From Pontixanthobacter aquaemixtae (GTDB lineage Bacteria > Pseudomonadota > Alphaproteobacteria > Sphingomonadales > Sphingomonadaceae): 64,000 bases of DNA. The notes under the pieces were generated by a model that was not told the origin of the DNA, searched no databases, and saw only the letters and a program-made list of their open reading frames with translations. This document shows positions 19,701-26,345 of the stretch, in pieces. Where the stretch lies: the NCBI RefSeq assembly GCF_009827395.1, contig NZ_WTYX01000001.1, positions 1,183,722 to 1,247,721 of the forward strand. The letters are read 5' to 3'. Made by a program: the position numbers and the translations under genes. The first letter of the stretch is position 1, and every line of letters begins with the position of its first letter.

Positions 19701-21083
19701 CTATTTCCCTGCTTCGGCAGCGGGCAGATCAAGTATAAAGCGCGCTCCTTCACCGGGCGCGCTTTTTACTTTCAGGTCACCGCCCATCGCGCGCGCAATG
19801 CGGCGGGAAATATAGAGGCCGAGCCCCGAGCCGCCATCGCCGGTCCGGCCAAGCCGTTCGAATTTCTCGAAGACGACCGCTTGCTGGTCATCGGTAAGCC
19901 CCGAACCTTGATCGCTGACCGTCACGCGCGCACCCGATCCGGTTTGCGCTACGCCGATTTCCACGGTGGATCCCTCGGGTGAATAGCGGATCGCATTGGT
20001 CACGAGATTGAGCAGTATCTGCAGCACGCGCCTGAATTCCGCGGTCGCCGGGCAAGTGACATCACTCGCTGGGGCAACAAGCTTGATCTTGTTCTCCATC
20101 GCCCGGACATTGAGGATGCCGACCGCGCGGCGCGCCACATCGGCTGCATCAATCTGATCCGGAGCGGTTGTGAAGCTTTCAGATTCAACCACTTCAAGAT
20201 CGGACAGATCCTCGATCAAAGCCATCAAGTGCTGGCCTGCCGACGCAATATCGGACGCGTAATTGCTATATTCCTCTGCCAGAGGGCCTGCCATTTTCGA
20301 CCGGATCGTCTCGGCATTGGCGATAATGCGGGCGATCGGTTGCCGCAGCACCGGCGACAGATCCCTGCCTATAGAGTGCATCGTTTCCGGCTTGGTTGCC
20401 GGCTGCGGTTTGCGCCGGTCGATCAGCGGGCGATTGGGCACCAGATAGAGATCAAATCCGCTGCTTCCCGGCTCTGGCTGGCCCAGAGGGATCAGGCTGG
20501 CGGTCCAAACCCGGTCAGACCCTTCGATCCGGCATTCCGCGCCATCGAGCAGGCGCCAATGGAGAGGCTGCTGGTGCGAGTTGCCCGGAAAGGTGACAAA
20601 TTCTGTCCAGGGATGGCCGCGCGACTGGCGCATCCGCGCGGTCAGATCAGCCAAATCGCGCGCTTCGCTCTCTACCGTCAAAACGCCTTGTTTGGCATCG
20701 AGCCGCGCCGTCAATTCAGAGATGGATTGGTCAATATCCCGCTTGCGCGCCACCTCTGCCGCCTCTGACTCGTCGGGCAGCGGAGAGGTTTGCCAACTGG
20801 CAACGCCGATAAAGCATCCGCCTTCCTCGCGTCCGGTTGGTGTCGCCTCGACCCAGGCGCTCACGATTTCATCACCCGTATGGGCGTGGACGGTGCGCGC
20901 GAGGCGCAGGCCGGAATCGGCAACTTTTTGAACCAGTTCGCGCAGTTCGGGAATCGCTATCACGCCGGGAATTTCGCCGCCGCAATGCTGCTGGAGCGAA
21001 GCGAGCGGTTCCTGCGCTTCAATCAACCGGTTGGCGCTGTCAGTCCGCGCACGAGCGATAAATGATCCGGATAGCGAGCTCAT
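19701..21083 (-). CDS. PAS-type sensor histidine kinase lacking the phospho-accepting His
   Basis: A 460-residue cytoplasmic protein without membrane segments. Residues 1-225 look like two PAS-type sensory folds. A HisKA-like dimerisation region follows, then an intact ATP-binding domain with N-L-V-T-N-A-I-R-Y-S-P, D-Q-G-S-G-L and G-G-S-G-L-G-L-Y-I-S-R-R. In the H-box, the segment D-L-S-P-V-L-R-Q-P-I aligns base by base with the usual V-S-H-E-L-R-T-P-L. The His position is therefore Pro244. It may bind ATP without autophosphorylating in the usual way, like a pseudokinase; Caulobacter DivL, with Tyr at this place, is a known precedent. Start at 21083 (MSSLSGSF), four bases after the DUF2336 stop, so the two are coupled. 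Confidence 0.8.
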   Translation of the reverse strand: MSSLSGSFIARARTDSANRLIEAQEPLASLQQHCGGEIPGVIAIPELRELVQKVADSGLRLARTVHAHTGDEIVSAWVEATPTGREEGGCFIGVASWQTSPLPDESEAAEVARKRDIDQSISELTARLDAKQGVLTVESEARDLADLTARMRQSRGHPWTEFVTFPGNSHQQPLHWRLLDGAECRIEGSDRVWTASLIPLGQPEPGSSGFDLYLVPNRPLIDRRKPQPATKPETMHSIGRDLSPVLRQPIARIIANAETIRSKMAGPLAEEYSNYASDIASAGQHLMALIEDLSDLEVVESESFTTAPDQIDAADVARRAVGILNVRAMENKIKLVAPASDVTCPATAEFRRVLQILLNLVTNAIRYSPEGSTVEIGVAQTGSGARVTVSDQGSGLTDDQQAVVFEKFERLGRTGDGGSGLGLYISRRIARAMGGDLKVKSAPGEGARFILDLPAAEAGK

Positions 21084-21087
21084 CAGG

Positions 21088-22035
21088 TCAACCCGCCGCC
21101 ATTCCGCCAGACGCGGCAAGTATTTCCGCCGCGCGATCGCGGCGCAGCATGTCGAAGCCTTCGGGCAAAGCTATTTCCGGATGGATATAGAGGAATTGCT
21201 CTTCCACTTCTTTAGGCTTGAGACCAGCGGCACGCAGCGACAGCGCGAGCCGGCCGACTTGCCGGTCATTGGTGGAAAGCACGGCGATTTCGCGATCCTG
21301 GTTCGATCCCAGCGCCAATGCCGTCAGGAAGATGGCAACGCCAGCGTGCGAAACCGAAAGTGCGGCCATTGCACCGCTGCTCATTCCTGAAACCAACCGC
21401 GACAGGAGCCCCAATCGGCTGGCTCCTTCGTCATAATCCGCGCGCAATTTCATTTCCGCCAGCGCGGTAATCTCGTCGAGGCCTTCGCCGGCATGGGTAC
21501 GCCATGTCAAAACAGCTGCGTGGAACAGATCGCCGGGCAGCTCTTTCAGTGGAAGCTCCATGCGCCCTTGCTGCTGGATAAAGCGCGCCTGCGCCGCCAG
21601 AACCGCCATGGCAGTGCTCGAAACAGCGCCGTCATCCGAAGCGATCATGGCCTGGGTCAGGGGCGACAGGACCGGATCGATAGTGCTGCGTTGTTGGAGG
21701 GAAAGCGCCAAATTCCGCTCCACCGCGAGCGAGTGGCAATGCGCGAGGAATTGCGTGTTGCCGAGCAAATGCGCGATCAAATCCTCGGCCTGCGACCGGA
21801 TGAACCCCAAAATGTCGTCTTCGCCGGCCTCTTTTGCCTGCGCGAAGAGCATTTGCGCGGCAACGTGAGAGGCCATTCCGCGAACCTGCGCGACGATCTC
21901 GTCGCTGAATAGCGAATTGTCCGGGCTGGCAACCAGATGGCCGATGATTGGCGCAACTGTTCCGAGCACAGCATCACCATGCGCAAGCTCGTCGCGCAGG
22001 ATCCCCTCCACTGGAATGTCAGCTGACTGGTTCAT
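21088..22035 (-). CDS. DUF2336 family protein
   Basis: A 315-residue, mostly helical soluble protein of a family found in alphaproteobacteria whose role is unknown. The sequence is a chain of short amphipathic helices, with a proline-rich turn (G-F-D-M-L-R-R-D-R-A region) at the end. No catalytic motif or signal peptide is seen. The start at 22035 (MNQSADIPVEG) has GGA ten bases upstream; 22050 is an alternative. It sits between the degenerate membrane protein and the His-less kinase on one strand, and a CtrA-like site lies about 40 bases upstream. Confidence 0.65.
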   Translation of the reverse strand: MNQSADIPVEGILRDELAHGDAVLGTVAPIIGHLVASPDNSLFSDEIVAQVRGMASHVAAQMLFAQAKEAGEDDILGFIRSQAEDLIAHLLGNTQFLAHCHSLAVERNLALSLQQRSTIDPVLSPLTQAMIASDDGAVSSTAMAVLAAQARFIQQQGRMELPLKELPGDLFHAAVLTWRTHAGEGLDEITALAEMKLRADYDEGASRLGLLSRLVSGMSSGAMAALSVSHAGVAIFLTALALGSNQDREIAVLSTNDRQVGRLALSLRAAGLKPKEVEEQFLYIHPEIALPEGFDMLRRDRAAEILAASGGMAAG

Positions 22036-22073
22036 AGCCGTTCCGTCCATCGCACCGCTTTAGCGCGACATGG

Positions 22074-22088
22074 TTAATCGCCCGTTAG
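22074..22088 (-). promoter_or_regulatory. CtrA-like binding site upstream of the DUF2336 gene
   Basis: On the minus strand this reads CTAA, seven bases, TTAA, followed by CC. It matches the CtrA consensus TTAA-N7-TTAA at seven of eight positions. It lies 39 to 53 bases before the DUF2336 start, a position where it could touch a promoter. The site overlaps the 3' end of the preceding gene. Confidence 0.45.
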
Positions 22089-23285
22089 CTTGACCGAGTA
22101 AGATTGAACCAACAGGGCGATCAACAAAAATGCGGCAAGCAATTGAATTACAACAGTTAATTGCCCAAAAGCCAGACCAACCCCGAGAATTCCCGACAAC
22201 ACGCCCCGATCTTCGAGCAATTCTCGCCATTTTCCGGGCCTTGAAGGTGCGGTAGAAACCACACCAAGGCGCAGCAACCCGAAGAGCATCAGCACGGCAA
22301 ACAATGCAGCCGTTTGCGCGGCCGGTTCGACAGTCTGAATCACCAACACCATCAGCACGAGGTCCAACACCGCCGGTGGCAATTTGGCCAGTATCTTGCC
22401 GCCTTTGGTTTGATCCCCGCTGCCGCGCAATATCGCCGATATCGTCAGGCTGAAGCGCGCCGCAAAGGCAGCCAATGCGGCGGCCACAAAGCCTGCGATC
22501 GGAAAACCGAAATATCCACTCACAAGCGCGAGCGCCAATAATGCATATCCAAGCCCGCCAACGGCGCGCGCGGCGCTGATGGGCCGGTCATGGCGCTTCA
22601 GCACGGTCAGCGCCGCTCGATCCGCCGCCGCGGTGACAGGGGCGACAAAACTCGCAGGCTGAGCCGCATTGCCGAGCCAGCGTTTTTCAAACTCCTGCAG
22701 CTTCCCCTGCTCCTGAACCAAAATCCATTGGTGATCGGCAATTGCATGATCGGGAAGCGGAGCGGTCTTTGTTCCGGATTGCAAAGCCAGTCTCAGCAAG
22801 CTGGACTGCGGATCAATATCGGTCGGCATCTGAGCCAATTGCTCAACCAATGCTCCGCTCGCCAGCATCAACCCGCCCCATGCAACATCGCGATCAAGCC
22901 GCTCAAAGCCTTCAGGAACAGCGGTTTCCGCGGGCAGAATGACAACTTTTCGGCGTCCAACCAGAATTTCTTGCGCCAATTGACTGTCAAACGCCAATCC
23001 GTCCGCAATGACCAGCAGTTCATCGGCGGAACTAACCAGGCCTGAAAGCGGCCTGAAGTCACGGATCGTTTGGAAGCGAACGCCAGCCCTTTCGGCCTTT
23101 TGCTGCAACGAAATCAGTTCCGGATGCAGCGTTTCAGACAGGCACACGACAGTTTCGCATTGGTTCGCCAACGCGAAATCAAGCTGCCGCTCAAGCACAG
23201 TGCGCCCGCCTATCCGCGCGAATGCACGCAGCTTGTGGCCATCACCTGATAGCGTTTCAATTGAAGATAACAGCGCGACCCGCAC
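22074..23285 (-). CDS. Membrane protein with degenerate nucleotidyltransferase-like domain
   Basis: A 403-residue protein in two parts. Residues 1-175 resemble a GT-A nucleotidyltransferase fold (F-A-R-I-G-G-R-T-V-L-E-R-Q-L-D-F-A-L and L-L-V-I-A-D-G), but the glycine-rich nucleotide loop is missing. Residues about 235-403 hold five or so membrane helices. The order recalls bifunctional inositol-phosphate cytidylyltransferase/CDP-alcohol transferases. However, the CDP-alcohol motif (D-G-x2-A-R with two downstream Asp) is not present. It is probably a non-catalytic relative; no function is assigned. It follows the Hpt-like gene by 61 bases and precedes the DUF2336 gene on the same strand. Confidence 0.6.
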   Translation of the reverse strand: MRVALLSSIETLSGDGHKLRAFARIGGRTVLERQLDFALANQCETVVCLSETLHPELISLQQKAERAGVRFQTIRDFRPLSGLVSSADELLVIADGLAFDSQLAQEILVGRRKVVILPAETAVPEGFERLDRDVAWGGLMLASGALVEQLAQMPTDIDPQSSLLRLALQSGTKTAPLPDHAIADHQWILVQEQGKLQEFEKRWLGNAAQPASFVAPVTAAADRAALTVLKRHDRPISAARAVGGLGYALLALALVSGYFGFPIAGFVAAALAAFAARFSLTISAILRGSGDQTKGGKILAKLPPAVLDLVLMVLVIQTVEPAAQTAALFAVLMLFGLLRLGVVSTAPSRPGKWRELLEDRGVLSGILGVGLAFGQLTVVIQLLAAFLLIALLVQSYSVKLTGD

Positions 23286-23346
23286 CCATACGCTCCCTTT
23301 TCAGGAGCACGTGCTTAGGCGGGCACTCGCGTCGTGCCAAGCGCCC

Positions 23347-23655
23347 TTAACTGTGGTCGCTTACAAAGTCCTGATAGAAGGCTTCGATTTTCCGGATGAT
23401 AACCGGCTCGCCGGGCGCAGATTCGAGCGCTTCCGCCGACAATTTCAGCAATTCTTCTGCATGGAAACTGGCAGCCACCCCTTTCAGGCGAAGCGCGGCC
23501 ATGTTCCAGTTTCCGTCGCAGCGTGATCGTTTCAGAAAGTCGATCTGGCGTTCGACGCTTTCCGCGAATGCATTGCGCAATTCGGCCATCAGCGCAGGGT
23601 CTTCCCCCGCTGCCGCAGCCAAAGTCGCATCAAGAGTGCCGTTTTCATACAACAT
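23347..23655 (-). CDS. Hpt-like phosphotransfer domain protein lacking the active His
   Basis: A 102-residue stand-alone helical protein. The central segment A-A-L-R-L-K-G-V-A-A-S-F-H-A-E-E-L fits the Hpt pattern A-A-H-R-L-K-G-A-A-A-S-F-G-A, with Leu55 where the phospho-accepting His belongs. The R-L-K-G core and the following L-x-x-L-x-x-x-A-L-E-x-A helix are kept. It could therefore bind receiver or kinase partners but cannot carry the phosphoryl group at the usual residue. It is the first gene of a minus-strand set with the membrane protein, the DUF2336 protein and the His-less kinase, and is divergent from the coiled-coil gene. Confidence 0.65.
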   Translation of the reverse strand: MLYENGTLDATLAAAAGEDPALMAELRNAFAESVERQIDFLKRSRCDGNWNMAALRLKGVAASFHAEELLKLSAEALESAPGEPVIIRKIEAFYQDFVSDHS

Positions 23656-23691
23656 GACGATCCGAAATACGCTCCACGATGTTAAGATGGG

Positions 23692-23727
23692 GTTTCACCC
23701 TGTGGAAAAAGTGCTAGATTCTCCACA
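23692..23727 (+). promoter_or_regulatory. Promoter of a probably leaderless transcript, with GANTC site
   Basis: TAGATT (23715-23720) makes a fair -10 box, with GTTTCA (23692-23697) as a weak -35 box 17 bases upstream. The expected start of transcription falls at about 23727, the A of the ATG. No Shine-Dalgarno sequence precedes this ATG. GATTC (23717-23721), a GANTC methylation site of the CcrM type, overlaps the -10 box. TGTGGA (23701-23706) and TCCACA (23722-23727) form an inverted repeat around it. Confidence 0.4.
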
Positions 23728-26345
23728 TGACCGGGGAAACCAACTTACGAGCTGTTGGCAGTAATGAACCGCAAGATGCGGATATTGATGCCAATTCCGA
23801 AGCGCATGACGAAGTTTTGTCGTTGACCGAGGAGGTTGATGACGAATGGGATTATGAACAACCGGCCCGTTCGCGCCTTGGTTGGATCGTTCCCGCAGCG
23901 GCAATATTGACGGCAATCGGCTGGACCGCATTTTATGGGTGGGCCCATCAGTCTGAACTGCTTTCCGGTGGTACACCGCAGCAATGGACAGGCTGGATCA
24001 CAGCGTGGTCGATTCCGGTTTTGCTGATCGTATCCTTTTGGCTGCTGGCAATGCGCAACAGCAAGCGTGAGGCCGAGAAATTCGGCGCGATGGCGCATAT
24101 GCTGTCGGAAGAATCCGCCTTGCTCGAGCAGCGTTTGCTGACCGTCAACCGAGAGCTCAGCCTTGCGCGCGAGTTTCTTGGATCTCAATCGCTGGAACTG
24201 GAATCGCTTGGCCGCATCGCCAGCGAGCGTCTGTCCGAACATGCGGACCGGTTGCAATCGCTGGTCCGCGACAATGGCCAGCAGGTCGATGCAATCGCCA
24301 GTGTCAGCACCACTGCGCTGGAAAATATGGGCAAATTGCGCGACGATCTGCCGGTCATCGCCAATTCTGCCAAGGATGTTTCGAACCAGATCGGCACTGC
24401 CGGACAAACCGCTGAGAACCAGATTGCCGGCCTCGTGTCCGGATTTGAACGGCTCAACGCGTTTGGGAAGGCAAGCGAGGATCAGGTCGACTCAATCCAA
24501 TCGAAAATCGAAGCTGCGCTCGCTACATTCGAGGCGCAGACAGCCGAGATGGAGGATCTCGCCGAAACCCGTTTCAGCGCACTACGCCAAAAGAGCGACG
24601 ACTTCCGAACAGAGCTCGACAGCCGCGAAGTTGAAGCCCTGGCGGCAATGCGTCGCCGCGCCGATTCCCTGGCCGAAGAATTCGCCAAAACGAAGGAAGG
24701 TCTCGACACCGAGGAAGAGGAAGCGCTGCGATCTTTGCGAGCGCGCCTCAACTCGCTGCGCGAGGAAGCCGGAACAGTCAGCAATTCATTGCAGGAAAGC
24801 GAAGCCAACGCGCTTGCAAGCTGGGAATCGCGCACTGCCACTTTGAAGCAGCAACTTCTGGACGCGATTGACGAGGTCACGCGCATTGACCAAACCGCTA
24901 TCGGATCCGCCAATGCCAAGCTCAATGCCTTGCGCGAGGAATCCGAAGCGATTGATGCCGGGTTCAAGCAGCGCGATGAGAAGCTGCTCGAACAGCTCAA
25001 CACCCGCCGGCGCATTCTGTCGGAAAATGAAGAACAGGCGATTGAATCGCTCTCCGCCCGCCTCGAAAGCTTCGATGAAGCCATTGCCGAGCGCCAGGAA
25101 GCGCAGAGGAGCGAATCCGAACAGTTCGCCCAGCGCAGCGAGGCGATTGCCGAACGCATCGATAGCCTGCGAACGACACTGACCGAGATGGCTGAGCTCG
25201 GCTCGCAAACAGAAGCAAGCCTCACCCAAAGCGTGCAAGGTATCGCTGCGGCACTTTCCCAAAGCCGGGAACAGATCGATGGAACCGATCAAGCCGTCAG
25301 CCAGCTGACCGATGCCAGCGTTCGTCTGCTGGAACTTATACAGGCAAGCGCTCAGCACAGCGCGGTCGATCTGCCAGAGGCTCTGACAACTGCCGAGGAA
25401 CGTCTGATAGAGGTGCGCGAAAGTGCCGAAAGCCTGAAAAGCGTGGTCGGCGAAGCCAGCGACAAGGGCGAGGAGCTCTCGAACTACGTCCTGGCCGCGA
25501 AGGAAACCAGCGAAGCATCTGCAGAACAGCTCGACGCGCTGCGTGAACGCGTGGCGGATTCCAATGCCGAAACGCAAGAAACGCTCACCAATCTAACAAC
25601 CGGCTTGGGCAAATTGAGCGAAGAAAGCGACCTGCTGTCAGCAAAGGCTCAGGATCAACTCCGGCAAGCGATTACCGCGCTGGAGGAAGCGGCTCGCAAT
25701 GCTCCGGCTACAGTTGAGACGCGTCTCTCGGGTAGCATTCATACGGTTGCTGCCAATTTGAGTGCACGCGCGCGAGAATCGCTCGACAAAGCGCTGCAAG
25801 ACGCATCGCGCGACTCGATTGCGAAGCTCGAAGATGCGGCATCGCAAGCAAGTGCGGCAAGCCGCGACGCTGCAATCCACCTGCGCGATCAACTCACCAA
25901 AGTAGACGAGTTGGCTGGCAATCTGGAAAATCGCGTCGCCCGTGCCCGGGAACAGGCTGAGGAGCAGGTTGGCAATGATTTCGCCCGGCGAATGGCGATG
26001 ATTACCGAAAGCCTCAATTCAAATTCGATCGACATTGCCAAAGCCATGTCGAACGATGTCACCGATACGGCTTGGGCTTCCTATCTGCGCGGCGATCGCG
26101 GCATCTTTACACGCCGCGCGGTGCAACTGCTTGGCAGCACAGAAGCGCGCGATATCGCCGAGATTTATGATGATGATCCGGAATTCCGCGAGAATGTCAG
26201 CCGGTACATCCATGACTTCGAAGCAATGCTGCGCAGCATGCTTTCCACGCGTGACGGCAACGCGCTGGGCGTAACGATTCTCAGTTCCGATATGGGCAAG
26301 CTCTATGTCGCACTGGCGCAATCGATCGAGCGCCTCCGCGAGTAA
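23727..26345 (+). CDS. Large membrane coiled-coil protein, TipN-like architecture
   Basis: An 872-residue protein with an acidic N-terminal tail (1-48), two membrane helices (about 51-71 and 88-109), a very long coiled coil (about 115-790) rich in Glu, Ala, Leu and Arg, and a conserved-looking globular C-terminal cap. The cap contains T-A-W-A-S-Y-L-R-G-D-R-G-I-F-T-R-R-A-V-Q-L-L. This size and layout match Caulobacter TipN, a polarity marker of about 880 residues with two N-terminal membrane segments and a C-terminal coiled coil. The match is by architecture, not by alignment. No other start is available before residue 80, and the ATG has no ribosome-binding site. A structural or chemotaxis-like role is the alternative. 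Confidence 0.6.
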   Translation: MTGETNLRAVGSNEPQDADIDANSEAHDEVLSLTEEVDDEWDYEQPARSRLGWIVPAAAILTAIGWTAFYGWAHQSELLSGGTPQQWTGWITAWSIPVLLIVSFWLLAMRNSKREAEKFGAMAHMLSEESALLEQRLLTVNRELSLAREFLGSQSLELESLGRIASERLSEHADRLQSLVRDNGQQVDAIASVSTTALENMGKLRDDLPVIANSAKDVSNQIGTAGQTAENQIAGLVSGFERLNAFGKASEDQVDSIQSKIEAALATFEAQTAEMEDLAETRFSALRQKSDDFRTELDSREVEALAAMRRRADSLAEEFAKTKEGLDTEEEEALRSLRARLNSLREEAGTVSNSLQESEANALASWESRTATLKQQLLDAIDEVTRIDQTAIGSANAKLNALREESEAIDAGFKQRDEKLLEQLNTRRRILSENEEQAIESLSARLESFDEAIAERQEAQRSESEQFAQRSEAIAERIDSLRTTLTEMAELGSQTEASLTQSVQGIAAALSQSREQIDGTDQAVSQLTDASVRLLELIQASAQHSAVDLPEALTTAEERLIEVRESAESLKSVVGEASDKGEELSNYVLAAKETSEASAEQLDALRERVADSNAETQETLTNLTTGLGKLSEESDLLSAKAQDQLRQAITALEEAARNAPATVETRLSGSIHTVAANLSARARESLDKALQDASRDSIAKLEDAASQASAASRDAAIHLRDQLTKVDELAGNLENRVARAREQAEEQVGNDFARRMAMITESLNSNSIDIAKAMSNDVTDTAWASYLRGDRGIFTRRAVQLLGSTEARDIAEIYDDDPEFRENVSRYIHDFEAMLRSMLSTRDGNALGVTILSSDMGKLYVALAQSIERLRE

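Follow-up and report, generated by a model that had tools for sequence, protein, structure and literature searches.

The window analysed here, a 64,000-nucleotide stretch of contig NZ_WTYX01000001.1 from Pontixanthobacter aquaemixtae, contains a compact five-gene block whose HisKA-type histidine kinase (HK) lacks the phospho-accepting histidine. The same genome encodes, outside this block, a kinase-like protein with the opposite defect (DHP), which carries the histidine and has a defective ATP site. Judged from their sequences, the best reading, to which we give about an even chance, is that HK and DHP constitute a HisKA-type split histidine kinase of which HK is the ATP half. Sampled genomes and loci are designated by G and L numbers, respectively, G000 being the genome of the window; ‘the family’ refers to Sphingomonadaceae, represented by 113 genomes within a 196-genome sample of the order. 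The features that bear directly on this reading are as follows.

19701..21083, minus strand: His-less HisKA/HATPase_c kinase (HK), the proposed ATP half; 460 amino acids from a probable ATG at 21083; assigned from domain matches and tree
19701-21119, minus strand: longest open reading frame of HK; 472 amino acids, TTG start at 21119
20352..20354, minus strand: Pro codon at the phospho-acceptor His site of HK; residue 256 of the 472-amino-acid frame, 244 of the 460-amino-acid protein
G000:C1:609912-611636: DHP, a His-bearing, ATP-box-defective kinase-like protein in the genome of the window, far from the block; found by HisKA search

Both kinase domains are present in HK, which matches HisKA (6.3e-08) and HATPase_c (3.5e-27). 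The initial annotation had placed Pro244 at the phospho-His site of a kinase with intact ATP boxes, and alignment to HK853 confirms that the proline stands at the phospho-His. Residues at this site, and at the corresponding site of an Hpt-like protein encoded in the same block, were counted in two overlapping sets of 80 and 62 loci, many of them cut or holding only part of the block; HK was found in 71/80 and 50/62 loci, Hpt in 72/80 and 43/62. The phospho-acceptor His of HK is absent from all 71 rows of the larger set (Pro in 70, Ser in one) and from all 49 of the smaller (Pro in 33, the rest R, S, Q, G, A, E, T, D and N); Pro predominates among relatives of the window, the other residues appearing at greater distance. 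The Hpt His is likewise missing from 70/70 and 41/41 family rows, where the site reads M, L, Q, E, W or another residue; only L095 and L096 have His in Hpt, and both come from other families, while a gap occupies the site in one HK row (L292) and two Hpt rows (L184, L187). Thus no family row in these sets has His at either site, although the particular Pro and Leu singled out by the initial annotation are not fixed, and this variability indicates that His was lost rather than exchanged for one set residue. The ATP site of HK is invariant by comparison: across 24 aligned rows, none with His, both N-box Asn, the G1 Asp/Gly/Gly and the three G2 Gly are each present in 24/24. (A first HK alignment of 33 rows had included one row, L087, that is actually DHP.)

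DHP was among the 15 matches, 11 of them above cut-off, of a HisKA search of G000. It keeps a HELRTP motif without the usual ATP boxes, and Pfam detects HisKA only. The histidine is present in all 51 aligned rows (L349 lies outside this comparison), N-box Asn in none at either position, and the first G1 Gly is replaced by Pro in 50/51. Within the HExxT motif, His and Glu are invariant in 32/32 rows and T356 nearly so. A structural model (mean pLDDT 84.2) comprises an N-terminal helical region, a PAS-like part, a DHp and a CA-like domain, and its fold matches are solved histidine kinases, including the RetS kinase region (6dk7 and 7n0e). By residues, therefore, an ATP half without the acceptor His and a His-bearing half with a defective ATP site are found in the same genomes, and this reciprocal loss suggests one active site divided over two proteins.

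In phylogeny DHP forms its own clade (support 100, in a quick tree without bootstrap and on a long branch), away from HK and its His-bearing relatives, so that the tree does not support DHP having arisen by duplication of the block kinase. Nor does its N-terminal region appear to be a DUF2336 domain (profile comparison probability 0.3 per cent). In the sampled family genomes the DHP gene lies mostly away from the HK block. It starts within 5.4 kb of the block's coiled-coil gene in eight of the 104 genomes compared out of 106 with DHP (G053 and G130 were excluded), namely G035, G080, G088, G097, G116, G119, G140 and G452; in five of these (G035, G080, G097, G119, G140) Hpt is also nearby, and in G035, G119 and G140 the kinase is elsewhere. 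Directly downstream of DHP in G000 (L331:4370-5437) and in G140 (L087:1621-2745) lies a gene with a similar stretch in both genomes (TVDTEEEFDW / TIDTEEDF), for which no Pfam match was found.

The two proteins are found together across the family. DHP was matched in 106 of the 113 genomes, and the seven without it were read as lacking the kinase too. Among 112 genomes (G053 was excluded because its kinase has His), 103 hold both, none the kinase only, two DHP only and seven neither (Fisher test 1e-9, uncorrected for kinship). The DHP-only genomes are G131 and G478, the latter with a DHP that lacks the DHp region and with HK missing; G478 was scored as having DHP in this count and as lacking it in the tree test below. 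Absence of HK was set by judgement: G105, G131, G466 and G478 have no match at 1e-30, and the weak matches in G121, G133, G135, G440 and G458 (4e-36 to 2.8e-38) were scored as generic kinases and hence as absence. Gene maps are consistent with absence in G131, G135, G458, G466, G478 and G440; G105, G121 and G133 were scored from matches, unmapped, and the G083 kinase, split over two frames, was scored as present.

Mapped onto a tree of 58 coiled-coil proteins, with both traits scored in 57 genomes, presence of DHP changes four times and presence of the kinase five, and in independent pairs the kinase follows DHP in 3.6 of 4 on average and does the opposite in 0 (p 0.125). Hpt presence, with states hand-assigned from gene maps, changes eight times and does not track the kinase (of seven pairs, 2.1 the same, 1.0 opposite, 3.9 no difference). 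Mirror-tree comparison with plain distances gave 0.68 for DHP with DUF2336 and 0.57 for DHP with HK, versus 0.32-0.34 for the NTP, Hpt and coiled-coil proteins of the block.

The kinase can be traced to His-bearing relatives. Thirteen loci from other families of the order, picked among the best outgroup matches, and one of G053 contain related kinases, in frames of 546-653 amino acids directly beside a DUF2336-like gene (14/14), and the acceptor His is present in all 14. Family kinases and these DUF2336-linked kinases form one clade (SH-aLRT 97, in a quick tree with SH-aLRT only). In G053 both proteins have His, the kinase (L281) on one contig and the Hpt that adjoins the coiled-coil gene (L381) on another. 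His-bearing orthologues, which the initial annotation had taken as a possible sign of mere local mutation, do not occur inside the family except in its early-branching member G053. There, as in relatives from other families, both sites are His, indicating that both losses started from ordinary ancestors.

In the tree with the 13 outgroup rows, G053 splits off before 23 family rows with support 100, on a long branch and with G440 not included; an outgroup-free tree places it beside G123, with a long-branch warning. If the outgroup tree is correct, the two loci were joined, and both histidines lost, after G053 had split off, and two losses within one stretch of history are not repeated evidence for a linkage between them. 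The DHP-like protein of G053 (L350) has the His and a defective ATP site, and since the kinase of the same genome keeps its His, decay of DHP appears to have preceded His loss in the kinase.

In the mechanism we propose, HK and DHP would assemble via their DHp helices, and the CA domain of HK, with ATP, would phosphorylate the DHP histidine in trans; DHP would then hand the phosphate to a response regulator and also remove it. The ATP site of DHP would have decayed first, and HK's own His thereafter. HExxT fits the phosphatase motif of PMC3591291, which makes a bifunctional split kinase possible. According to PMC3591291, EnvZ domains on separate polypeptides keep activity, and 1556 of 42417 HisKA proteins occur without HATPase. 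The split kinase characterised there is CheA3/CheA4 of Rhodobacter sphaeroides, in which one protein is an ATP-dependent kinase without an acceptor His domain and the other is acceptor and phosphatase, a division of labour like that suggested for HK and DHP, although in a CheA type with a separate P1 domain (PMC3591291). HK and DHP, by contrast, are both of HisKA type, each with a DHp-CA fold in which one function has decayed. Reciprocal loss of functions of this kind is not known from RetS/GacS. That system resembles the proposed pair in that HisKA kinases form a co-complex, according to the title of PDB entry 7n0e, and in the likeness of the DHP model to the RetS kinase region.

Several points weigh against joining HK and DHP in one enzyme. 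Their genes are far apart in G000, and G131 keeps DHP without HK. The p value of 0.125 is the minimum that four pairs allow, so the tree-corrected sign test cannot reach 0.05, and G440, which accounts for one of these pairs, sits deep in the tree on a very long branch and perhaps never possessed either protein. With rank distances over 24 genomes, the mirror-tree value for DHP with HK (0.61) does not exceed that for DHP with the coiled-coil protein (0.63). Several genomes without HK and DHP are small (2.4-2.7 Mb), and genome reduction could explain why both are lost together. DHP retains part of the ATP-site signature, with two of its three G2 Gly kept in 48/51 and 45/51 rows and the G1 Asp in 10/51, and its loss of ATP binding is something we infer. 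DHP might also receive its phosphate from another kinase or from a receiver.

Among other explanations, it is possible, if rather unlikely, that HK is a pseudokinase in the manner of Caulobacter DivL, its DHp-CA fold sensing a phosphorylated response regulator and steering a different kinase without itself acting as an enzyme. DivL, which has been characterised as such a pseudokinase, is a HisKA kinase without His that binds ATP weakly and is a proposed sensor of DivK~P (PMC4211667); HK has likewise lost its His, while its DHp holds a GPL..Y..YA.DI stretch common to its His-bearing relatives. DivL, however, has Tyr at the His site, which is not the case in HK, where Pro or a variable residue stands, and the weak ATP binding of DivL contrasts with the invariant ATP residues of HK. 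G000 moreover has a separate, Tyr-bearing DivL-like kinase (L268), which falls elsewhere in the tree than the family kinases and their DUF2336-linked relatives (on a long branch, with Caulobacter DivL itself outside the tree), and the co-occurring His-bearing DHP is left unexplained. The suggestion of the initial annotation that the His-less proteins are binding-only regulators like DivL is therefore weakened for the kinase.

It is quite unlikely that DHP is instead a ChpT-like phosphotransferase fed by a receiver domain, with HK as an ATP-gated modulator, the two being lost together through a common pathway and not through a common active site. ChpT is a DHp with a decayed CA domain, as DHP is. 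G000 also encodes proteins that are, by their motifs, CckA-like (L272), ChpT-like (L279) and DivK-like (a single-domain regulator at G000:C2:271046-271381, in a frame of 134 amino acids); the first of these favours such a relay, and joint loss is compatible with any common pathway. The separate ChpT-like protein, however, speaks against this role for DHP, as do its HExxT in a kinase-like layout and its modelled PAS-like part, and the reciprocal defects would be coincidence. Very unlikely is that HK and DHP are functionally unrelated decayed kinases whose joint absences reflect genome reduction and common ancestry: the small genomes, the few events in the sign test and the lack of a specific rank-distance signal would fit, but kinase-only genomes number 0/112, catalytic residues are conserved in each half, and Hpt, with eight changes on that tree, does not go along.

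The other features of the block, and its Hpt site, are listed here.

21088..22050, minus strand: divergent DUF2336-family protein, operon neighbour of the kinase; family-level profile match
22074..23285, minus strand: NTP/membrane gene, a decayed nucleotidyltransferase/CDP-alcohol phosphotransferase fusion with an AF2299-like fold and its catalytic motif lost; model and motif
23347..23655, minus strand: His-less Hpt-domain protein; family-level Hpt match and alignment
23491..23493, minus strand: Leu55 codon at the Hpt His site; alignment to His-bearing relatives
23727..26345, plus strand: two-helix membrane coiled-coil protein with a conserved C-terminal region (YLRGDRGIFTRRAV ... GKLYVALAQ), divergent from Hpt, also outside the family

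An open reading frame check of the window found the five genes at the places and in the order initially described, four on the minus strand and one divergent on the plus strand. The recurring order is gltX-gltA> <HK-DUF2336-NTP-Hpt< >coiled-coil> <DUF1467-RNaseJ-coaX. Of the first 20 loci (L061-L080), 17 contain all five families in this arrangement; DUF2336 was undetected in L073 and L080, and NTP in L077. Inside the family the neighbourhood is therefore conserved, and together with the family-wide His loss this rules out chance grouping or a local mutation. In four genomes inspected for it (G035, G047, G119, G140) the block is split, with Hpt and coiled-coil genes by RNase J and NTP and HK elsewhere, and three genomes that lack HK, DUF2336 and Hpt (G458, G466, G478) retain NTP and coiled-coil genes. 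Of the earlier proposal that the block acts together, both His losses proved real and family-wide and the neighbourhood conserved, but the notion of all five genes as one functional unit is weakened by the gene content of the last three genomes and by Hpt loss not following kinase loss. Hpt, NTP and coiled-coil proteins are counted as neighbours, not as parts of the proposed split kinase. In G083 (L400, 6208-7632) the His-less kinase lies in two frames, DUF2336 and Hpt were not found and a 50-amino-acid stretch is a possible Hpt remnant, perhaps a stage of system loss; G131 and G466, which have the same genus label, are without the kinase.

The DUF2336 label holds at the level of the family but not for the window protein alone, which has no match to the DUF2336 profile (PF10098); two of 20 relatives match at E<=0.1 (best 1e-13, L084), and the homologue beside the His-bearing kinases is a clear Pfam DUF2336 in 4/4 tested (3e-70 to 2e-64). 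No mention of DUF2336 was found in the literature searched. The window Hpt-like protein alone likewise falls below a Pfam Hpt (PF01627) match and has no match among PDB sequences and none in plasmids. In an alignment of 29 rows, made up of family proteins and two His-bearing outsiders, 16 match Pfam Hpt at E<=1 (best 5.5e-10). The replacement of its His by Leu55, as first reported, is borne out by alignment with the His of relatives outside the family. There, 16 of the 38 loci examined have an Hpt gene divergent from that of the coiled-coil protein (14/18 in the same order, 2/20 in other orders), and as several of the 38 are cut at contig ends, the misses are not all absences; His is present in 18/18 such proteins (the 16 loci plus L095 and L096). 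An Hpt profile run over 18 family genomes matched in 14 at E<=0.5, strongly only in G053 (1.8e-14), and most of the remaining matches are probably other Hpt proteins. For the Hpt-like protein, a binding-only role remains the simplest reading.

The NTP protein, initially called a degenerate nucleotidyltransferase/membrane protein, is better described as a decayed CDP-alcohol phosphotransferase fusion. Its model (mean pLDDT 91.8) matches nucleotidyltransferases and AF2299, a CDP-alcohol phosphotransferase (PDB 4q7c, 4o6m) with the same two-part layout (414 and 417 alignment columns, TM-score 0.53 by query length). In contrast to AF2299, the CDP-alcohol DG..AR motif is missing from all 26 block copies (L100 has a DG remnant); it is present in 8/12 homologues outside the block. 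The ancestor of the protein was a fusion of nucleotidyltransferase and CDP-alcohol phosphotransferase; what remains is a decayed enzyme of inositol-lipid type retained next to signalling genes, the third block protein without its catalytic signature. The NTP homologue in G053, G105 and G440 (L261, L262, L263) adjoins a myo-inositol-1-phosphate synthase-like gene, Pfam-confirmed for G440.

For the coiled-coil protein of the window no Pfam family was found at cut-off, and its closest match, with 71 per cent identity, is from Pontixanthobacter sp. CEM42, records nearest the window having possibly been excluded; this places the window on the Erythrobacter side of Sphingomonadaceae. Among sampled genomes, a coiled-coil profile finds matches in 84 of 289 from the class (E<=1e-6), in some cases over the coiled coil only, and in 181 of 196 from the order (E<=1e-8); the C-terminal end is the most conserved part. 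In layout the protein may resemble the Caulobacter polarity protein TipN.

DivK may be the target of the HK/DHP pair, a tentative suggestion that would fit. Sphingomonadales are described as having lost the DivJ-PleC-DivK system or as having it in degenerate form, several members still possessing an orthologue of DivK or PleC (PMC2877005). HK/DHP is a concrete candidate for the input to their CtrA pathway. Neither DivJ nor PleC was recognised among the HisKA matches of G000, where no search with a PleC model was made. That the DUF2336-linked kinase of Sphingomonadaceae became an obligate two-gene HisKA split kinase, divided into an ATP-site half and a half bearing the His and phosphatase motif, and replacing DivJ/PleC in DivK control upstream of DivL-CckA-ChpT-CtrA, is unlikely when taken as a whole. 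Split kinases are predicted to yield switch-like or bistable output (PMC3591291). No description of the pair was found in the literature searched, and ‘not in print’ is limited to those searches. If the proposed reading is true, a HisKA pair with reciprocal decay in 103 of 112 genomes would be a clean case of one enzyme becoming two, and the His-bearing relatives outside the family, with the in-between state in G053, would trace that split.

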